From Balneolaceae bacterium (GTDB taxonomy: Bacteria > Bacteroidota > Rhodothermia > Balneolales > Balneolaceae), in assembly GCA_017640605.1 (NCBI GenBank), contig JAEPQH010000015.1, positions 1-64,000 of the forward strand: DNA of 64,000 nt. Reading direction: 5' to 3'. The notes under the pieces were generated by a model that had not been told where the DNA came from, did no database searches, and was given only the letters and a program-made list of their open reading frames with translations. The position numbers and the translations under genes are program-made. Position 1 is the stretch's first letter; each line of letters opens with the position of its first letter. Shown one piece after another: positions 38,467 through 48,400 of this stretch.

Positions 38467-38550
38467 GCATTAGAGAATTTTTCTTATCTACTAATTGAAT
38501 TCAAGATCAGCTAACTTGAATGCATTCCATTTAGAGAGTTTTTTGTGTAT

Positions 38551-41500
38551 ATGATGATCAGGCAGTTATTGAATAAATGTTGGGCTACCATTTTATTGAT
38601 TTTCATTATCGGTGGACAAACTTCAGCCCAGCTTGTGATTAACGAGATTAGCGCTAGTAATTCGAATGTGATTTTTGATGAAGACGGCGACTCTCCCGAT
38701 TGGATAGAGATTCAAAATATCTCGGACGCAGCTGTTCAACTTAGCAGTTTTTCTATCAGTGATGACCCTGAAGAACTAGATAAATTTGCTCTGCCCGAAT
38801 ATTTGCTTCAACCCGGCGAGTTTCTACTCTTATTTGCTTCCGACAAAAATCGAACCGGAGGTGCGGTTTATTGGGAAACCGTGATCAGAGAAAATGACGA
38901 AACAAAGTACATTGTACCTCAATCGGCCGTGAGTACTCAATGGACACTTCCCAACTTTATCGACAATTCCTGGCAAAGCGGCACATTTGGGATTGGTTAC
39001 GGAGATGAAGATGATGCAACACAAATTGCAGCGGGAAGTATGTCGGTGTTTACCCGAACAATGTTTACGGTTGATGACACTTCGAGCATTTATGATCTGA
39101 AGTTCCATATCGATTACGATGACGCCTACATTGCATTTCTAAATGGTGAAGAAATAAGCAGAGCCAATATTACCGGAGCAAATCCAATCCCTTTTGATCA
39201 AGGAGCGGATAATTTTACGGAGCCTCGCCTTGTTTTCGGAGAAGACTTACCCACTATCAATCTTAAGAACAAACTTGACCATCTTTTAGATGGTGAAAAC
39301 GTACTTGCGATCCAAGTTCATAATTTTAATCAAAGCAGTTCCGATTTAACACTCATACCTTTTCTAAGTGTAGGCTACAATCAGCAACCGCAAAACGCAC
39401 GAGGAGTCGCAGATCCAACCCGACTTCAGAATATTCAAATCGATTTTCCGCACACAAATTTCAAACTCAGCGCACAAGGTGAATCGGTTATTTTGAGTAA
39501 ATCAGATGGAACCATCATCGACGAAATTACTTACCCCAAACTATTTGCGGATGAGTCTTTTGGCCGTTCTTTGGATGGTTCACAATTACTCATTTTTACC
39601 GACCCAACTCCCGGTGCTGCCAACGAATCGCAGGGATTTGCCAGCCGTTCTGATACACCTGAACTAAACGTTACAGGTGGTTTTTATGAGCAGCCCGTTC
39701 AGTTGTATATAGTAAGTTCTGAAAACGCTTCACAAACGTACTACACCTTTGACGGAAGTGTACCTACGGAATCATCTCCTCATTTTGGTGATGGAGCGAT
39801 CGAAATTAGCTCAACAACTACGGTTAAAGTCAGAACTATCGAATCCGGAAAAGTTCCCGGCGATGTAGTGGTAGAAAGTTTTTTCATCAATGAATCACAC
39901 AATTTACCGGTAGTCACGGTGTCCACTCATCCGGATAATTTATGGAGCGATGAGAGTGGTATTTATGTGGTAGGAACAAATGGAATTCCTGCATGGGGAA
40001 TGTACGACAATGGTGGAGCTAATTGGAATCAAGATTGGGAGATTCCCATTCACATAGAGCTTTTTGAAACACACGGAAGTAAAGCATTTGGCGTTGGTGC
40101 TGGCGCAAAAATCGGCGGAGCATGGAGTAGAAATAATCCGGCTAAATCACTTAAAATTTATTTTAGAAGTGAATATGGTGCAAATGCCCTTGAGTATAAA
40201 ATGTTTGAAAGTAAAGAAATTGATAGCTTTCAAAGCATCGTACTTAGAAATTCCGGCAATGATTTTACTTCACAGGGTCATTCGATGTTTAGAGACGGAT
40301 TGATGACTTCACTTGTGCAGAATACTCAGAATGATATTCAAGCTTTTCGGCCGGCGGTACTTTATCTGAATGGTGAATATTGGGGGATTCATAATATCCG
40401 GGAAAAGATCAACGAGCACTTTATAGAATCAAATAGCACTGCAAATTCCGATAATATTGATTTATTGCAAGGTGGTGGCGAAAGAGATTTTCCGAATAGC
40501 TTTGGCGCAACGCATGGAACTGTAGAGGATTATGATAAGATGATATCATTTGTTGTTTCATCAGACTTAAATGATCCGGAGCTTTTTGCGCAAGTTGAAG
40601 AACTGATTGATATGGATAACTACATCGATTATATGGTTGCCCAGATTTATTATGCCAATACCGACTGGCCTGGAAACAATGTGAAAATTTGGCGAAGCCG
40701 AGAAGAAGGAGGCAAGTGGCGCTGGATTCTTTACGATACCGATTTTGGATTTAATCTTTCATACGGCGGGCAGGTTTGGCATAACACCATCGACTTTGCC
40801 CTGGAACCTAACGGACCCGGCTGGCCTAATCCACCTTGGTCTACCGTGCTTTTTCGCGAATTGGTTGAAAGCGAGAAGTTCAGGGAAATGTTTGTTAATC
40901 GTCTTGCCGATATGTTGAACTCGAACTTTAAACCCAGTTATGTAGAGCAAATGATTGATTCTTTGGCCGGATTAATCGCTACCGAAATTCCGCGACATAT
41001 GGCCAATCAAACCCGAAGCGGAAATTGGGGAGGTACAGTCTCAGGATGGAATGATCAAATCCGAATTTTGAAAGAATTTGCCAATCAACGACCGGATTAC
41101 GTGGAAGGATTTTTGAGACAACCTCGAAGTAGTGGTGGAAAATTTGAAGTGGGAGCGCTAACGCCTCTAACTGTCTCAGTTTCTGATTTAGATCATGGAT
41201 ATGTTCAGGTGAATCGATTAAAAATTGACCGAAAAAACTGGTCCGGCAATTATTTCGCAGGTACCAAAATACCGGTAACTGCGGTAGCTCGTCCGGGTTA
41301 CCGTTTTATAGGTTGGACAGGAGATATTCAATCCCAATCTAACACCATCGAAGTAGGTGCCGGAGTAGAATTAGTAGCCAATTTTGAGGCATCGCAAGAG
41401 GGACAGGAGCTGGTAATCAATGAAATAATGTATCACAGCGATGATGCCAATGATTCCGAAGACTGGATCGAGATTTATAATCCTAGTGACAATATGGTTG

Positions 41501-42177
41501 ATGTAAGTGGATATGTAGTAAAAGATGACGACGATACTCATTCATTTTCCATCCCTGAAGGCACACAACTACCATCCAATGGTTATTTAGTGATTACGAA
41601 AGAACTATCGAAATTTGAAGTCGTATATCCTTCTGTAGAAAATGTAATCGGAGATTTGGGATTTGGGCTTTCAGGAAACAGCGATCAGGTTCGTTTGTAT
41701 AATGCAGACGGCTTATTACTGGATTCACTAACTTATGATGATGAAGCACCATGGCCGGTTGCTGCGGATGGCGAAGGATTCAGTTTAGAGCTTATCAGCT
41801 ATGAAAGCGATAACAGTTTAGCCGAAAGTTGGAGGGCATCAACATACCAACAAGGAAGTCCTGGAATGGAAAATGGATTGCAGGTTTCCACGGAAACTCG
41901 AAACGATATTCCTCAACAAGTAACTTTATTTCAGAATTACCCGAATCCATTTAATCCTACAACTAACATCACTTTCGAGCTTCCTTCGCGGCAAGAGGTT
42001 TCTTTAGATGTGTTTAGTATATCAGGACAAAAAGTGGCCACACTTGCAAATTCTATGTACTCAGCCGGCACTTACTCCATAACATGGAATGCATCGAATA
42101 ATGCTAGTGGAGTTTATTTTTATGTGCTTAACGTGGGCGAGCAATCCTTTTCGAAAAAAATGACTCTTATCAAGTAA
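38551..42177 (+). CDS. Large secreted CotH-kinase protein with two lamin-tail domains and T9SS sorting signal
   Basis: The ATG at 38551 is preferred over the GTG at 38545; the next ATG (38554) is also possible. The ~1208-residue protein has a signal peptide (ATILLIFIIGGQTSA). A first lamin-tail domain (LVINEISASNSN ... SPDWIEIQN) starts at once. A chitobiase-like segment (TYYTFDGSVPTESSP) leads to the CotH kinase domain at ~440-850, with NGEYWGIHNIREKINEHF and the DFG-like RWILYDTDFGF. An InlB-type repeat (ARPGYRFIGWTGDI), a second lamin-tail domain (LVINEIMYHSDDAND) and a type-A T9SS domain (NYPNPFNPTT ... KKMTLIK) follow. Likely surface-exposed kinase; the target is unknown. It leads a probable two-gene run with the nuclease gene. 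Confidence 0.9.
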   Translation: MMIRQLLNKCWATILLIFIIGGQTSAQLVINEISASNSNVIFDEDGDSPDWIEIQNISDAAVQLSSFSISDDPEELDKFALPEYLLQPGEFLLLFASDKNRTGGAVYWETVIRENDETKYIVPQSAVSTQWTLPNFIDNSWQSGTFGIGYGDEDDATQIAAGSMSVFTRTMFTVDDTSSIYDLKFHIDYDDAYIAFLNGEEISRANITGANPIPFDQGADNFTEPRLVFGEDLPTINLKNKLDHLLDGENVLAIQVHNFNQSSSDLTLIPFLSVGYNQQPQNARGVADPTRLQNIQIDFPHTNFKLSAQGESVILSKSDGTIIDEITYPKLFADESFGRSLDGSQLLIFTDPTPGAANESQGFASRSDTPELNVTGGFYEQPVQLYIVSSENASQTYYTFDGSVPTESSPHFGDGAIEISSTTTVKVRTIESGKVPGDVVVESFFINESHNLPVVTVSTHPDNLWSDESGIYVVGTNGIPAWGMYDNGGANWNQDWEIPIHIELFETHGSKAFGVGAGAKIGGAWSRNNPAKSLKIYFRSEYGANALEYKMFESKEIDSFQSIVLRNSGNDFTSQGHSMFRDGLMTSLVQNTQNDIQAFRPAVLYLNGEYWGIHNIREKINEHFIESNSTANSDNIDLLQGGGERDFPNSFGATHGTVEDYDKMISFVVSSDLNDPELFAQVEELIDMDNYIDYMVAQIYYANTDWPGNNVKIWRSREEGGKWRWILYDTDFGFNLSYGGQVWHNTIDFALEPNGPGWPNPPWSTVLFRELVESEKFREMFVNRLADMLNSNFKPSYVEQMIDSLAGLIATEIPRHMANQTRSGNWGGTVSGWNDQIRILKEFANQRPDYVEGFLRQPRSSGGKFEVGALTPLTVSVSDLDHGYVQVNRLKIDRKNWSGNYFAGTKIPVTAVARPGYRFIGWTGDIQSQSNTIEVGAGVELVANFEASQEGQELVINEIMYHSDDANDSEDWIEIYNPSDNMVDVSGYVVKDDDDTHSFSIPEGTQLPSNGYLVITKELSKFEVVYPSVENVIGDLGFGLSGNSDQVRLYNADGLLLDSLTYDDEAPWPVAADGEGFSLELISYESDNSLAESWRASTYQQGSPGMENGLQVSTETRNDIPQQVTLFQNYPNPFNPTTNITFELPSRQEVSLDVFSISGQKVATLANSMYSAGTYSITWNASNNASGVYFYVLNVGEQSFSKKMTLIK

Positions 42178-42240: not shown

Positions 42241-44175
42241 ATGTTTAAAAAATCGATTCTGTACTTCAACACCCTTTTAATTGCCATATTTCTAGGGGTT
42301 TTCTCACCAACCTTTGCACAAAATGACCTGATAGAGCCTACACTTACAGGCACAGAATTGATTGATTATCTGCAGAATAATTTCACCCCAACCAGCCCCA
42401 AAAGTTATAATAGTGCCCGAGATGCCATGTATGGCTCCATCGACAATAAAAACGGGCAAATAATTGGCGTATATACCGGCTTTACAATCACCGCAAATAC
42501 TCGCGGCGATGCGTTCAATAAAGGGATTAATACCGAGCACACATGGCCACAAGGTTTATTTGATAGTGACGAACCCATGAGGGGTGACATTCACCATTTA
42601 TATCCAACAAGAATTGAAGCGAATTCGGCACGCAGTAATTATCCTTTCGATGAAATTCCGGATAATCTCACCGATAAGTGGTTTTATTTAGATGGAGATC
42701 AATCGTCTATACCATCATCAAACATCGATTTATTCAGCGAGCTAGATAATGGTTCACGCTTCGAACCTCGGGAAGATCATAAAGGAAATGTGGCGCGAGC
42801 TATTTTCTATTTCTGGACTATTTACCAAGACCGAAATAATGTGGCGGATGACGCGTCTTTTTTTAATGGTATGAAAGATGTGCTGTTAACCTGGCACGAT
42901 TTAGATCCCGTTGACAATGCGGAAGTTACTCGAAGTAACGCTGTGGAAGGTGTACAAGGGAATAAAAACCCATTTATCCACGACACTACCTTAGTACGAC
43001 GTGCATATTTCGGTGGCGGAACTGTGGAGCCGGATCCGGTGCCAAATCCTGTTACAGGTACAATAAACGACATCGAAAACAGTAGTTTTACTCTGAATTA
43101 TGACGATGAGGGTGCAAACCGAAGCACAATGTTTAGTTACAATGCCGGAACTCAAATTCAGGATACTACGGGTAGTGCAATAACCCTTACTGATTACTCA
43201 CGCATTGATGAAGCAGAAGTTCGGTGGACTCAGGGAAATAACGAAGATGAATACATCGCCGATGAAATTTTGGTAATTATGATCGAAGAACAAGGCGATA
43301 CCGTAATTACAGGTCCGGCTGCTCGACCACAATCATTGATTCTTACCGGAATATTTGATGCCACTCTATCCGGTGGTACTCCAAAAGGAGTAGAACTTTT
43401 TGCATTAACAGACATCCCCGATTTAGGAATGTTTGGGATAGGTTCGGCAAGTAATGGTGGCGGCACTGATGGTGTTGAATTTACCTTAAGCGGATCAGTA
43501 GCCAAAAATGAATTTATTTATGTAGCCACAGAAAGTTCGAATTTTAATGCCTGGTTTGGTTTCGATCCCGATTTCAACGACACCTTTGGAGTAGCCATAA
43601 ACGGAGATGATGCTGTTGAGCTATTTTTTGATTCAACCAAAGCATTTACAGGCAGTGAAATTGTGATTGACACTTTTGGAGAAATTGATGTAGACGGAAC
43701 GGGTACCAGCTGGGAGTATACCGATGGCTGGGCATATCGCAAAAGTTTTACAGAGGCAGATAGTTCAATTTTTAATAGCAATAACTGGACCTTTTCGGGG
43801 CCTGATGCTTTAGAAAACGAAAGCTCAAACAGCACAGCCACCAATCCGGTGCCCATTGGAACATTTGAACCCAAAATGGTGACTTCAAACGAGAATTTGG
43901 TTCAAAAACCATCGTCTATTCGTTTACTGCAGAATTATCCCAATCCGTTTAATCCTCAAACCATCATACCTTTTGAAGTAAATAAGCCGACGCATGTACG
44001 TTTGGAAATATATAATGTATTAGGTAAGCGAGTTGCAATGCTTATCAATCAGCCATTTTCTGAGGGGGCATATTCGCATACTTTCGACGCAAGCATTTTA
44101 CCGGGTGGTGTATATTATTACCGTTTGACTGCAGGTGAGTTCTCAGAAACTAAAGCGATGATTTTGATTAAATAA
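42241..44175 (+). CDS. Secreted endonuclease I-family nuclease with T9SS sorting signal
   Basis: A 644-residue exported nuclease. After the signal peptide (LLIAIFLGVFSPTFA) comes an endonuclease I (NucM/EndA-like) domain at ~35-260: NTEHTWPQGLF and GDIHHLYPTRIEANSAR supply the catalytic His and Asn residues. A lamin-tail-like beta domain (LILTGIFDATLSGG) spans ~365-550, and the end is a type-A T9SS domain with NYPNPFNPQT and KAMILIK. It probably degrades extracellular DNA or RNA for phosphate or nitrogen. It follows the large CotH gene by 63 bp on the same strand. Confidence 0.92.
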   Translation: MFKKSILYFNTLLIAIFLGVFSPTFAQNDLIEPTLTGTELIDYLQNNFTPTSPKSYNSARDAMYGSIDNKNGQIIGVYTGFTITANTRGDAFNKGINTEHTWPQGLFDSDEPMRGDIHHLYPTRIEANSARSNYPFDEIPDNLTDKWFYLDGDQSSIPSSNIDLFSELDNGSRFEPREDHKGNVARAIFYFWTIYQDRNNVADDASFFNGMKDVLLTWHDLDPVDNAEVTRSNAVEGVQGNKNPFIHDTTLVRRAYFGGGTVEPDPVPNPVTGTINDIENSSFTLNYDDEGANRSTMFSYNAGTQIQDTTGSAITLTDYSRIDEAEVRWTQGNNEDEYIADEILVIMIEEQGDTVITGPAARPQSLILTGIFDATLSGGTPKGVELFALTDIPDLGMFGIGSASNGGGTDGVEFTLSGSVAKNEFIYVATESSNFNAWFGFDPDFNDTFGVAINGDDAVELFFDSTKAFTGSEIVIDTFGEIDVDGTGTSWEYTDGWAYRKSFTEADSSIFNSNNWTFSGPDALENESSNSTATNPVPIGTFEPKMVTSNENLVQKPSSIRLLQNYPNPFNPQTIIPFEVNKPTHVRLEIYNVLGKRVAMLINQPFSEGAYSHTFDASILPGGVYYYRLTAGEFSETKAMILIK

Positions 44176-44249
44176 AATTCTTAACCCATTTTATAAATTC
44201 TGCTAATTATTGTAAGTTCTCGAAAATTGTTAGCAAATAGGGTTCAGGA

Positions 44250-44723
44250 ATGCAAGGTATAGAAAGAGGTGTAGGTCTACGGACTAAGCCGCAAGTTAAA
44301 AAGGGTACTTGGGAAGTTATTATCACTGATCCAAGTCTCAATAAATTCACATTTGGTCCGTCACTAATTAGCAGATATGTAATGACGGATGTCATATCTC
44401 CGCACGGGCAAAAATCCATTTTATACAACACCATACCGGCATCCACTAACGAAGAATTAGTAATTAAACTGAACTTCGAAAGTGTGGATGATTGCAATAT
44501 TTCTGATATCAAAATTCGTTCATCCAGATCCTTATTTCAAAAGTGGAAAGTAACACTCATCGACAACAGAACCGGTGAAAAAATGCCACTTACTGCTGAT
44601 CAGGACATTGCCATAGAGCCTCCAATCCAGTACAATAAGCTTTTTGCAATGGGCTTTATTTCCGAGAATCAAAAAAAGGGCGATCACTTTTTTGAACTTC
44701 GGTTGCAGCAGAAAAACAACTAA
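44250..44723 (+). CDS. Unknown beta-rich protein, paralogue of the gene at 46682
   Basis: A 157-residue protein without signal peptide or membrane helix. Its centre reads GTWEVIITDPSLNKFTFG, VISPHGQKSILYN and FQKWKVTLIDNRTGEKMPL. The same pattern (WEIEVSD, SPDQQNK, ENWQLTLIERQSGF) occurs in the protein encoded at 46682, so the two are distant paralogues. The W-x-hydrophobic-T-L-I-[DE]-x-x-[TS]-G phrase also resembles the beta domain just before T9SS sorting signals. Its 3' end overlaps the convergent TPR/LuxR regulator gene by 4 bp. The function is unknown. Confidence 0.75.
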   Translation: MQGIERGVGLRTKPQVKKGTWEVIITDPSLNKFTFGPSLISRYVMTDVISPHGQKSILYNTIPASTNEELVIKLNFESVDDCNISDIKIRSSRSLFQKWKVTLIDNRTGEKMPLTADQDIAIEPPIQYNKLFAMGFISENQKKGDHFFELRLQQKNN

Positions 44724-46402
44724 ACCTGATTCAAAAAAACACCCAAGTTCTCACTTTTAGGTAGGTCTAGTTTTTTTCTAAGTCGATATCGGCTTTGATC
44801 CACACTCTTTGGGCTGATATTCAAAATCCCTGATATTTCTTTCGAGCTTAAATTCAATCGTAGTAATGCGGCCAATCTCCGTTCCTGATTGGTCAGGTTT
44901 GGGTATTGTTGCTCCAAAGATTTGAAAAATCCATCGCACGCCTGCTCTACCTGTATTTCAAATTCCTCCCGGTCTTTATTGATCATCAAGTTTTGATAGA
45001 TTTTTGATCCTAGCTTATTGATTTGCTTCAATACACCCGAGTTCTTGATCTCGGTTCGAATCTCATTCATCTCTGATTTCACCTCTTCAAGAAAATCGTT
45101 TTTCTCTACAATATGCAGTGCGTAATTAGTTAGTTCTTTTTGAAGATTTTCTTCCCGAAGGCGAGCATTTGCTAACTCTTCTTCTGCAATTCGCTTTTTC
45201 GAGTCTGCTATTATCCGATCTTTTTCCAGCAATTCTATTTCTTTGCGCTTCTTGTTGATAAAGAATAGAGCAGTAATCAATACTACAAGCAATACAGAAC
45301 CTAAACCCGAAGAAATGGAAATTAACCGGGCTGATTGTAATTCTTGCTCTTTCTCCAATAACTCAATTTCGCGTTGTTGTTCGGTAGTTTCATATTCTGC
45401 GCGAAGCTCTGCTAATTTATTTGCGGATTGTTGGTTAATCAGGCTGTCGTTAAACACTTTGTGTTGCACGTAATGCTCATAAGCATTTTTGTAGTCGCCC
45501 AAGTCTTCATAAATCCTAGATAAATTCAGATAGGAATCCTTCTGCTCGTAGGGTATTTCCAGTTCGTTGGCAATTTCAAGGCTTCGTTGGTAGTAATTTA
45601 AAGCAGACTGATAATCTTTATTTTGATAGGATACCGAGCCAAGAATTCGAACAGCATACGATTCCATAATCAATGCATTTTGTTCTTTTGCTGTATTTAG
45701 CGCCAAGGTTGCGAAATAAACGGTGCGGTCTCTACGCTGCAAACGATCATACAAAAGAGCTAAATTAACCTGTGTAGAAGCCATGCTCATCACATTCTCA
45801 TTATCAGTATGCAGGTCTAGTGCTTTAAGGTAGAATTCTTCAGCAAGCTCAAAGTTTTCCAATTCCAGATGGGCACTGGCAATATTATCATACAAAGAGC
45901 CCATTCTAAGTGTATCGTTTAACTCCTCATAAATGGCTGATGCATCCGCATAATACTCTAGTGAAAGCTCCTGCTGAAATTGGATGAAGTAGATATTCCC
46001 AATGCCTCGAACCACTTCCGCTCGAAAACTTAGATGATCCGGATTGTTTAATGCGTCGATGCGAGCTAATAAATCATTGAACTGAGCCAATGCAGGAGTG
46101 TAATCTCCCGAACGAATCATTCCGCGTCCGATAAGTAATCCCGACTCAATAAATAATTGATCATCCCCAAGTTGTTCTGCCATTGTATAGGCTTCTTGCG
46201 CAATGCTAATGAGCGTGTCCGGATTGGTTTGTTGAAATGAACTGCCGATTTCCAGTTTCCAACGTATGATTTGCGCTTCATCAGAACTTTGAGAAATTCG
46301 CTGATTCAACGAATCGACCAACGCACTTTGAGTTTGCGCCGTAGATATTTGAATACTGCAAAAAACAGCAATAAATAAAATGGATGAACATTTCCTAACC
46401 AT
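44720..46402 (-). CDS. TPR sensor with membrane helix and LuxR-type DNA-binding end
   Basis: The ATG at 46402 is chosen because a ribosome site (AAAGGGGAA) precedes it and a signal/anchor follows (SSILFIAVFCSIQISTA). The frame extends 43 codons further without such features. The 560-residue protein has about seven TPR units in the periplasm (YYADASAIYEELND, AEEFYLKALDLHTDNE, ALNYYQRSLEIANELE). A membrane helix near 355-380 (SVLLVVLITALFFI) is followed by a coiled coil of Glu/Lys-rich helices, then a LuxR-family helix-turn-helix (LTNQERRLAALLRLNLSSKEISGILNISP, split here by prose only in part). It probably couples an envelope signal to transcription. The paralogous unknown genes on either side are likely targets. 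Confidence 0.88.
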   Translation of the reverse strand: MVRKCSSILFIAVFCSIQISTAQTQSALVDSLNQRISQSSDEAQIIRWKLEIGSSFQQTNPDTLISIAQEAYTMAEQLGDDQLFIESGLLIGRGMIRSGDYTPALAQFNDLLARIDALNNPDHLSFRAEVVRGIGNIYFIQFQQELSLEYYADASAIYEELNDTLRMGSLYDNIASAHLELENFELAEEFYLKALDLHTDNENVMSMASTQVNLALLYDRLQRRDRTVYFATLALNTAKEQNALIMESYAVRILGSVSYQNKDYQSALNYYQRSLEIANELEIPYEQKDSYLNLSRIYEDLGDYKNAYEHYVQHKVFNDSLINQQSANKLAELRAEYETTEQQREIELLEKEQELQSARLISISSGLGSVLLVVLITALFFINKKRKEIELLEKDRIIADSKKRIAEEELANARLREENLQKELTNYALHIVEKNDFLEEVKSEMNEIRTEIKNSGVLKQINKLGSKIYQNLMINKDREEFEIQVEQACDGFFKSLEQQYPNLTNQERRLAALLRLNLSSKEISGILNISPKSVDQSRYRLRKKLDLPKSENLGVFLNQV

Positions 46403-46681
46403 AGATTCCCCTTTTGTATAGATGTGACGCATGAATCTACATGAAATAAAAGTGAGATAATCTTCAAAATTTCTCGACAAAATCTCTACAACATCATGCA
46501 CATGAATAGTTAAAGCGCATATTTGGAGCAAGCTGAGAAGCTGGGTGAGAGCAAAAAGTAGATATAGAGAATACGGAAATCATATTCGAGCTGAAATTTT
46601 GGAAAATTATTGAACGAACAATCTCTACAATCTATCTACACCTGCTTTAAATAAAATCCCTGCTTTTTAGATTGGCAAAAA
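46403..46681. promoter_or_regulatory. Divergent intergenic region with repeated words
   Basis: This 279-bp gap lies between the TPR/LuxR gene (minus) and the gene at 46682 (plus). The word AATCTCTACAA occurs twice, near 46484 and 46619, on the same strand, the second copy being followed by a related TCTATCTAC. The copies may be regulator sites. No ORF or hairpin terminator was seen. Confidence 0.35.
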
Positions 46682-47146
46682 ATGGAGATGAGTATGCAAT
46701 CAAACGTAGCTAAGAAAGTCTCTGCAAAAAATGCAGAACACTTGATCTGGGAAATTGAGGTTTCAGATTTAGGGAGCAGTAAACCTTTTCTCGGTTTTTC
46801 ACTTACCGGGCAGTATTTATTGGTAAGTCTTACTAGTCCCGACCAACAGAATAAGGTAGACATACAATCGATACCCGAGCAGAAAGATCAACCTTTAATA
46901 ATTCCAATACGTTTAAATGCAATTGATTTTCCGCAAAAAGGTAGGCTACACTTTAAAGGTATTCGCCGTTTATTAGAGAACTGGCAGTTAACATTGATAG
47001 AGCGTCAATCTGGGTTCTCCTTCGCATTAAGAAATGACGCTATATTTTCGTTGGCAAAGATTCAACAAGCTGCGTTTGATTCAAACCACGGCGCTTCCTT
47101 TCAAGAAAAAGTAGTTCTGGAACTACAACTCTCACCCAAGAAATAA
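46682..47146 (+). CDS. Unknown beta-rich protein, paralogue of the gene at 44250
   Basis: A 154-residue protein, no signal peptide. GGAG at 46684-46687 sits seven bases before an in-frame ATG at 46694, so the real start may be there (150 residues). Shared features with the protein at 44250 are WEIEVSDLGSSKPF, TGQYLLVSLTSPDQQNK and ENWQLTLIERQSGF, aligned at W-E, S-P-x-x-Q and W-x-x-T-L-I. The gene is divergent from the TPR/LuxR regulator, whose product may control it. No known family was recognised. Confidence 0.75.
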   Translation: MEMSMQSNVAKKVSAKNAEHLIWEIEVSDLGSSKPFLGFSLTGQYLLVSLTSPDQQNKVDIQSIPEQKDQPLIIPIRLNAIDFPQKGRLHFKGIRRLLENWQLTLIERQSGFSFALRNDAIFSLAKIQQAAFDSNHGASFQEKVVLELQLSPKK

Positions 47147-47269
47147 GAATAAATGCCCGCAAGCAATTATTGTCACACAAAGATTAACGACCCTGCGAAT
47201 AGAGTAATCGACAGTAACCTTGTGGGCTTATTTTCTACAAAAGGTGTATGATTTTGCGTACCATTGCGT

Positions 47270-48400
47270 ATGCAAATTAAATCGCTCACACTCCAAAATT
47301 TTCGCAATCATGAGTCCACAACTGTGGATTGGCTTCCTCATCTGAATGTGATTACCGGACCGAACGGCGCCGGAAAAACCAGTTTGATTGATGCAATTCA
47401 TTACTTGTGTATGTCACGGAGCTTTGTATCGAATTCCGATCAATATGTGATTTTGCAAGGTGAAAGCTATTTTATGCTGAAAGGTGATTTTTCGGGTGCC
47501 ATGCGGAGTGCCTTTGAAGTAGCATGCAGTTATTCGCGAGGTGAGGGAAAGAAGATTTTTGTAAATGATGGCCCCTTAGATCGGCTAAGTGATTTGATTG
47601 GGATGGTGCCGGTGGTAGTGTTAAGTCCGGATGATAAACGCCTAACCCGAGAAGGACCCATCGAGCGAAGAAGCTTTTTGGATTCGTTTATTAGTCAGAT
47701 TTCGAATCAATATTTGCGCGACTTGCTCGATTATCGCCGCATTCGAAGGCAACGAAACAGTTTGTTGCAGCAATATGCCACCGCACCACAGATGCTGGAA
47801 ATGTATCTGGAGCCATGGAATAAACAATTGGTAGAAACCGGCGCTGCTATTGTTGACGCTCGATTCAATGTGCTGGAGAAGTTTAAACGATACTTAGCCG
47901 AAGATTACGCGATGATTTCCGGGATGAATCTTACCACAAATCTGGAGTACAAAACCTTTTGCGATGCTTCGGAAGGGTTGGAGGCGATTAAAAAACATTA
48001 TTACGAAAAACTAGCAGAAGCCGCTGATAAAGAAATTGAGCGCGAACAAACGTTGATTGGCCCGCATCGGGATGAAATAGTCTTTTATTTAGGGGATCGA
48101 GAGCTGAGGCAATACGGCTCACAAGGTCAGCATCGGTTATTTGCGCTATCGTTGAAGTTGGCCCAACTCCACTATTATTCCGACGAGCTGGACGACTTAC
48201 CCATTTTTATGCTGGATGATGTTTTTGGAGATTTGGATCCACAAAAAACCCGTATTTTATTAGAAGCACTCAAAAATCATCCCGGACAGATTTTCATTAC
48301 ATCCGCCAATCCTGTTCCTTTCGAAGATGTAATTGAGTTCGATGGAGAACGAAATCAGCTTTTACGAATCGAACAGGCAGAAATAGTTGGGATAGAGTAA
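47270..48400 (+). CDS. recF: DNA replication and repair protein RecF
   Basis: RecF is an SMC-like ATPase that loads RecA at gaps and stalled forks. The start is set at the ATG at 47270 (the TTG two codons earlier is less likely), giving 376 residues. Walker A is TGPNGAGKTSLIDAI near 30-43. The signature region is QYGSQGQHRLFALSLKLAQL, and Walker B is LPIFMLDDVFGDLD near 315. The gene is followed by a DciA-like gene and ybbR on the same strand. It lies about 14 kb from the dnaA/origin region. Confidence 0.97.
   Translation: MQIKSLTLQNFRNHESTTVDWLPHLNVITGPNGAGKTSLIDAIHYLCMSRSFVSNSDQYVILQGESYFMLKGDFSGAMRSAFEVACSYSRGEGKKIFVNDGPLDRLSDLIGMVPVVVLSPDDKRLTREGPIERRSFLDSFISQISNQYLRDLLDYRRIRRQRNSLLQQYATAPQMLEMYLEPWNKQLVETGAAIVDARFNVLEKFKRYLAEDYAMISGMNLTTNLEYKTFCDASEGLEAIKKHYYEKLAEAADKEIEREQTLIGPHRDEIVFYLGDRELRQYGSQGQHRLFALSLKLAQLHYYSDELDDLPIFMLDDVFGDLDPQKTRILLEALKNHPGQIFITSANPVPFEDVIEFDGERNQLLRIEQAEIVGIE

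Follow-up and report, generated by a model that had tools for sequence, protein, structure and literature searches.

The gene pair flanking a membrane-bound TPR–LuxR regulator in the 64,000-nt stretch of Balneolaceae bacterium DNA analysed here (the window; positions 1 to 64,000 of contig JAEPQH010000015.1, from a genome of 3.74 Mb, G000) encodes two signal-less, stand-alone versions of a domain that otherwise precedes the T9SS tail of long secreted proteins. Taking the proposal as a whole, we consider it reasonably probable that the regulator (R) binds direct repeats in the intergenic region that it shares with one of the two genes (B) and activates that gene, and that B and its paralog (A) are cytoplasmic proteins derived from the pre-T9SS-tail domain.

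A and B are signal-less paralogs flanking the regulator

On the forward strand of the window, genes for a CotH/lamin-tail T9SS protein (38545-42177) and a T9SS endonuclease I (42241-44175) precede A (44250..44723, forward strand, 157 aa), which starts 74 bp downstream of the endonuclease gene. R (44720..46402, reverse strand) is convergent to A, and the two stop codons overlap by 4 bp (CTAA, 44720..44723), as they likewise do in the genomes G001, G034 and G025. Divergent from R lies B (46682..47146, forward strand, 154 aa), followed on the same strand by recF (47264-48400) and, beyond it, by conserved housekeeping genes. A GTTAGCAA-like motif about 20 bp upstream of the A ATG (44220-44249) is conserved in 7/7 genomes and could be a leader or translation element.

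An earlier note, made from the letters alone, had described the two flanking products as paralogs with W-E, S-P-x-x-Q and W-x-x-T-L-I patterns in common and without signal peptides, one gene convergent and the other divergent to a membrane TPR protein with a LuxR-type end, and each of these descriptions was borne out. BLASTP aligned A with B at 26% identity over 97 residues (E=5e-14); across orthologs, both W and the S-P of the common patterns are invariant, while E, Q and T-L-I vary. A signal peptide could be excluded for both proteins because in-frame stops lie directly upstream, 3 codons before the ATG of A and 9 codons before that of B, and neither protein contains a hydrophobic segment. 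B may instead start at its third Met (46694), for which an SD-like GGAG and agreement with the orthologs speak. A and B thus lack the N-terminal signal peptide of T9SS cargo, and the C-terminal sorting domain (Por_Secre_tail) is absent as well, both proteins ending at the domain.

Searches of Pfam and NCBIfam gave zero family matches for A and B, a P_proprotein match (E 0.1) being noise. The structure models of both proteins, of moderate confidence (pLDDT 76 and 81), are all-beta with short helices, and no significant match to them was found in the PDB by sequence or by fold (Foldseek). A 153-aa ORF of the same genome (C26) that gave a weak match was rejected as a third paralog, as it belongs to a lipoprotein family.

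A and B match a domain that precedes the T9SS tail

When the own genome was searched with a profile built from 13 A and B orthologs, the matches other than A and B themselves were an FG-GAP cargo protein of 999 aa (2.2e-9) and a protein of 2604 aa (0.07); across the order, the profile matched many long ORFs with HMM E-values down to 5.8e-10. Among the embedded matches examined, 13-57 residues almost always separated the domain from a following T9SS motif NYPNPF. Profile–profile comparison, a check suggested in the earlier note, likewise linked A and B to this embedded domain: hhalign matched the A+B alignment to 12 embedded domains at 98.7% (E 1.5e-16), and B alone matched them at E 4.8e-17. 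These profile comparisons identify A and B as stand-alone forms of the beta-domain found ahead of the T9SS tail in long secreted proteins of the Balneolales, a domain that has no name in Pfam and NCBIfam. Its detachment into cytosolic, non-exported proteins is a new point.

The T9SS cargo of P. gingivalis has, according to Sato et al. 2018 as cited in PMC11285876 and PMC10202324 (layout in PMC7712824), an Ig-like domain before the CTD, the same position as that of the Balneolales domain homologous to A and B. Unlike that Ig-like domain, A and B are free-standing and lack both signal peptide and CTD, and the likeness is one of position, Foldseek having given no significant match. Like A and B, PorA, which acts with PorXY-SigP (PMC7712824), is a small beta-domain protein tied to a regulator, but it has a CTD, reaches the cell surface by export and acts upstream of a two-component system, whereas export signals are absent from A and B. 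Another TPR–LuxR regulator, in G002, is transcribed divergently from the gene of a T9SS protein of 625 aa with two copies of the domain (L146 3976-5853), one copy standing directly after the signal peptide.

Their homology to a cargo domain, the missing signal peptide and tail, and the fast evolution of B (56% identity between congeners) could also mean that A and B are functionless, decaying fragments of T9SS cargo genes. We regard this as scarcely credible and rejected it on conservation: the proteins keep a length of 149-159 aa throughout seven genomes and three genera, about 37 positions of A are invariant, the B promoter is conserved (see below), and substitutions are constrained, with purifying selection on B (dN/dS 0.17) and a dN of 0.149 for A, for which dS is saturated.

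The stand-alone form probably arose once and was found in three genera only

Searches of 129 genomes of the order and 394 of the phylum found the stand-alone form in only seven Balneolaceae genomes of three genera; elsewhere in the phylum it was absent from the 394 genomes drawn, where all other matches were in ORFs of at least 299 aa. Scanning contigs with an A-only profile gave five records, from Balneolaceae, Balneolales or Rhodothermia. The A-R-B block adjoining recF is kept in five genomes of the three genera (G000, G001, G034, G025 and G014). In G002, whose sisters are G000 and G001, A and B form a tandem pair that no R interrupts, and in G007, of the same genus as G034 and G025, only A is present.

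In the maximum-likelihood tree, the A clade (support 100/99) and the B clade (81/82) together split from all embedded domains (100/98), which indicates one detachment and then a single tandem duplication, both older than the divergence of the genera, and the R tree is congruent with this history. Read parsimoniously, the distribution points to a loss of R in G002 and of R together with B in G007, although G002 is an 82%-complete MAG in which R could sit in unassembled sequence. As A is kept without R in both genomes, R is dispensable for keeping A.

R is a membrane-anchored TPR–LuxR regulator

The start of R was placed at 46402, giving 560 aa, a 603-aa ORF with a TTG start being a wrong call. 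The protein has an N-terminal signal-like segment, TPRs (TPR_12, 1.3e-20), one transmembrane segment (residues 371-389 of the translated 567-aa frame), a coiled coil and a LuxR-type HTH (LuxR/GerE, 1.9e-6; NISPKSVDQSRYRLRKK). TPRs, membrane segment and HTH are thus found in one chain, as in a transmembrane one-component regulator, and from these features the TPRs would be periplasmic and the HTH cytoplasmic. As a regulator that binds DNA and is held in the inner membrane, R resembles the transmembrane transcription regulators surveyed in PMC10269533, in whose main text LuxR/GerE and TPR are absent.

Two NCBIfam models with the same TPR–TM–HTH architecture matched R partially, SusR_regulator (NF058541) at 2.2e-12 with 47 of the 480 bits of its cut-off, and BT3442_fam (NF053779) at 1.2e-10 with 41 of 940 bits. 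Since these scores fall far below the curated cut-offs, R lies outside both equivalogs, SusR and BT3442, and its neighbours and the site-bearing promoters are T9SS-related and not glycan loci. R also matched FimS (NF053520; 1.5e-26 over residues 16-395), a TPR-sensor histidine kinase of P. gingivalis with a related periplasmic TPR sensor (PMC11053733). FimS acts through its kinase and FimR, while R has its own DNA-binding domain.

A direct repeat lies at a fixed distance from the -7-like box of B

The R-B intergenic region, aligned among five genomes, is 54% identical overall, and 31 of its 47 invariant columns fall inside two 18-20-bp direct repeats of the form TCTCTAC-N4-TCTCTAC. Site 1 (TCTCGAC-AAAA-TCTCTAC, 46472..46489, forward strand) is conserved in six genomes and has no -7 box at 28 bp. 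Site 2 (TCTCTAC-AATC-TATCTAC, 46622..46639, forward strand) would be where an activator acts on the B promoter; the -7-like box TAGATT (46668..46673, forward strand) follows it by exactly 28 bp in 6/6 genomes. Including two cargo promoters beside R3, a paralogous regulator, a TAG[A/T]TT box was located exactly 28 bp downstream of the site in 8/8 promoters. All nine other sites have a TA at 27 or 28 bp; three of these nine promoters were located by the motif alone, two of the three preceding orthologous secreted proteins in G007 and G002.

The -7 element of Bacteroidota is TAnnTTTG, and the geometry of the B promoter resembles that of such an element with an activator bound just upstream of -33. 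From site 2 and its 28-bp spacing to the -7 box, we infer that R probably activates B, whereas site 1, which has no such box, may serve autoregulation. The strict form of the repeat occurs once in the G000 genome, as site 2, and a looser form at sites 1 and 2 and once more inside a 998-aa coding sequence, so that the R regulon in G000 looks minimal.

The upstream region of A has no repeat site. This bears on the suggestion in the earlier note that the three genes form a dedicated sensing module in which R controls A and B as its effectors. That part of the suggestion which ties R to its neighbours stood, in that the A-R-B block is syntenic in five genomes of three genera, A and R are convergent and overlapping, and the operator-like sites tie R to B. 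What did not stand is the inclusion of A, which lacks a site and has outlasted R in G002 and both R and B in G007; in two of the seven genomes, therefore, the genes are unlinked from the regulator, an outcome which the note itself had named as speaking against its reading. We now hold the classic module to be quite improbable, and prefer the reading in which R probably acts on B.

The sites follow a subfamily of R-like regulators

The core CTAC-N7-CTAC was found upstream of 10/10 sampled regulators of the R, R3 and R4 groups, in each case on the strand that points away from the regulator, and in 0/18 other TPR–LuxR relatives (R2 among them) and 0/141 control genes of the same loci; as the R/R3/R4 grouping was made during the reading of the sites, the 10/10 describes the sample and is no blind test. 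The tree requires two changes of the site label. The same layout of site and promoter recurs near T9SS cargo or zinc-ribbon genes beside paralogous regulators. In G034 and G025, R3 adjoins a parallel-beta-helix cargo of the T9SS; its target in G025 has a domain homologous to A and B, weak in HMM score (E 0.6) and clear by eye.

It is conceivable that the repeats are bound by another regulator, such as an OmpR/PhoB-type response regulator, with R merely sharing the intergenic region. A 7-4-7 direct repeat is the classical layout of Pho boxes, and G002 retains both sites although no R stands between A and B. Together with the commoner binding of dyads by LuxR-type HTHs, these points also speak against the proposed link between R and B, though G002, which keeps B, does have R2. 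Against another regulator, the sites follow the R/R3/R4 subfamily, the A locus of G007, a genome from which R and B have been lost, has none, and the recognition helix of the G002 R2 (NISPKSVDQGRYRLRKK), whose own gene has no site upstream, is identical to that of R in G034 and G025. On balance we judge binding by another regulator unlikely, and continue to favour R as the binder.

Several further loci were observed alongside. At L153 (G007:C5:79321) and L156 (G002:C232:4051), a 7-4-7 repeat with TA at 28 bp precedes orthologous large secreted proteins (NISIPGITGVDFDTTGGSYTI), which are likely further targets of the R family, judging from this layout. Upstream of R4, a site and a -7 box face a stretch of about 200 bp without a conserved ORF (L049 8629-8956, L053 8965-9290, L050 8200-8507), which ends in a conserved 'GACCAGACAAG..AAAGC' terminator and is a candidate regulator-activated small RNA; Rfam gave no match in five related loci, this candidate included. 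Zinc-ribbon-like CxxC proteins (about 87-102 aa, CxxC..EGK..CxxC) recur beside TPR regulators of the R kind (L049 3813-4121; L050 10412-10675 and 3397-3669; L046 11064-11351), some of them with an upstream 7-4-7 site.

A proposed role for R, A and B

In the mechanism that we propose, R would be a membrane one-component regulator that senses something periplasmic through its TPRs, as has likewise been proposed for FimS (PMC11053733). Once triggered, it would bind the tandem 7-4-7 repeats (nnnCTAC-N4-nnnCTAC) of the divergent intergenic region with its cytoplasmic HTH, and turn on B from site 2, at 28 bp upstream of the TAnnTT-type -7 box, with site 1 probably contributing autoregulation or cooperativity. 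A would be the older partner, expressed without R from a position immediately downstream of the T9SS endonuclease gene, and the pair would have arisen by a single derivation from a pre-tail cargo domain and a tandem duplication before the genera diverged.

What A and B do can be proposed only tentatively. They may be cytoplasmic proteins of an adaptor or holdase-like type that possibly pair with one another, B being the inducible form; this is a doubtful suggestion, although we place it ahead of the following two. They may form an anti-activator or feedback arm that touches the coiled coil or the HTH of R-family regulators, which would suit the probable induction of B by R and the joint loss of R and B in G007, where B would have been co-dependent; the persistence of A without R argues against it, and we think this role improbable. 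More speculative, and in our estimate very improbable, is that R, R2, R3 and R4 monitor the periplasmic traffic of T9SS cargo and control cargo with the pre-tail domain, with A and B as internal mimics that set the response.

The operator/promoter rule of the R subfamily is a new point, no description of a target site for this membrane-bound TPR–LuxR group having been found in the literature searched, and it can be tested as stated: a 7-4-7 repeat, 28 bp, and TAnnTT. Together with it, the locus would provide a case in which a domain of secreted proteins has turned into a conserved pair of cytoplasmic proteins. If it is true that the R family controls T9SS cargo, the rule would offer a handle on the regulation of secretion in Balneolota.
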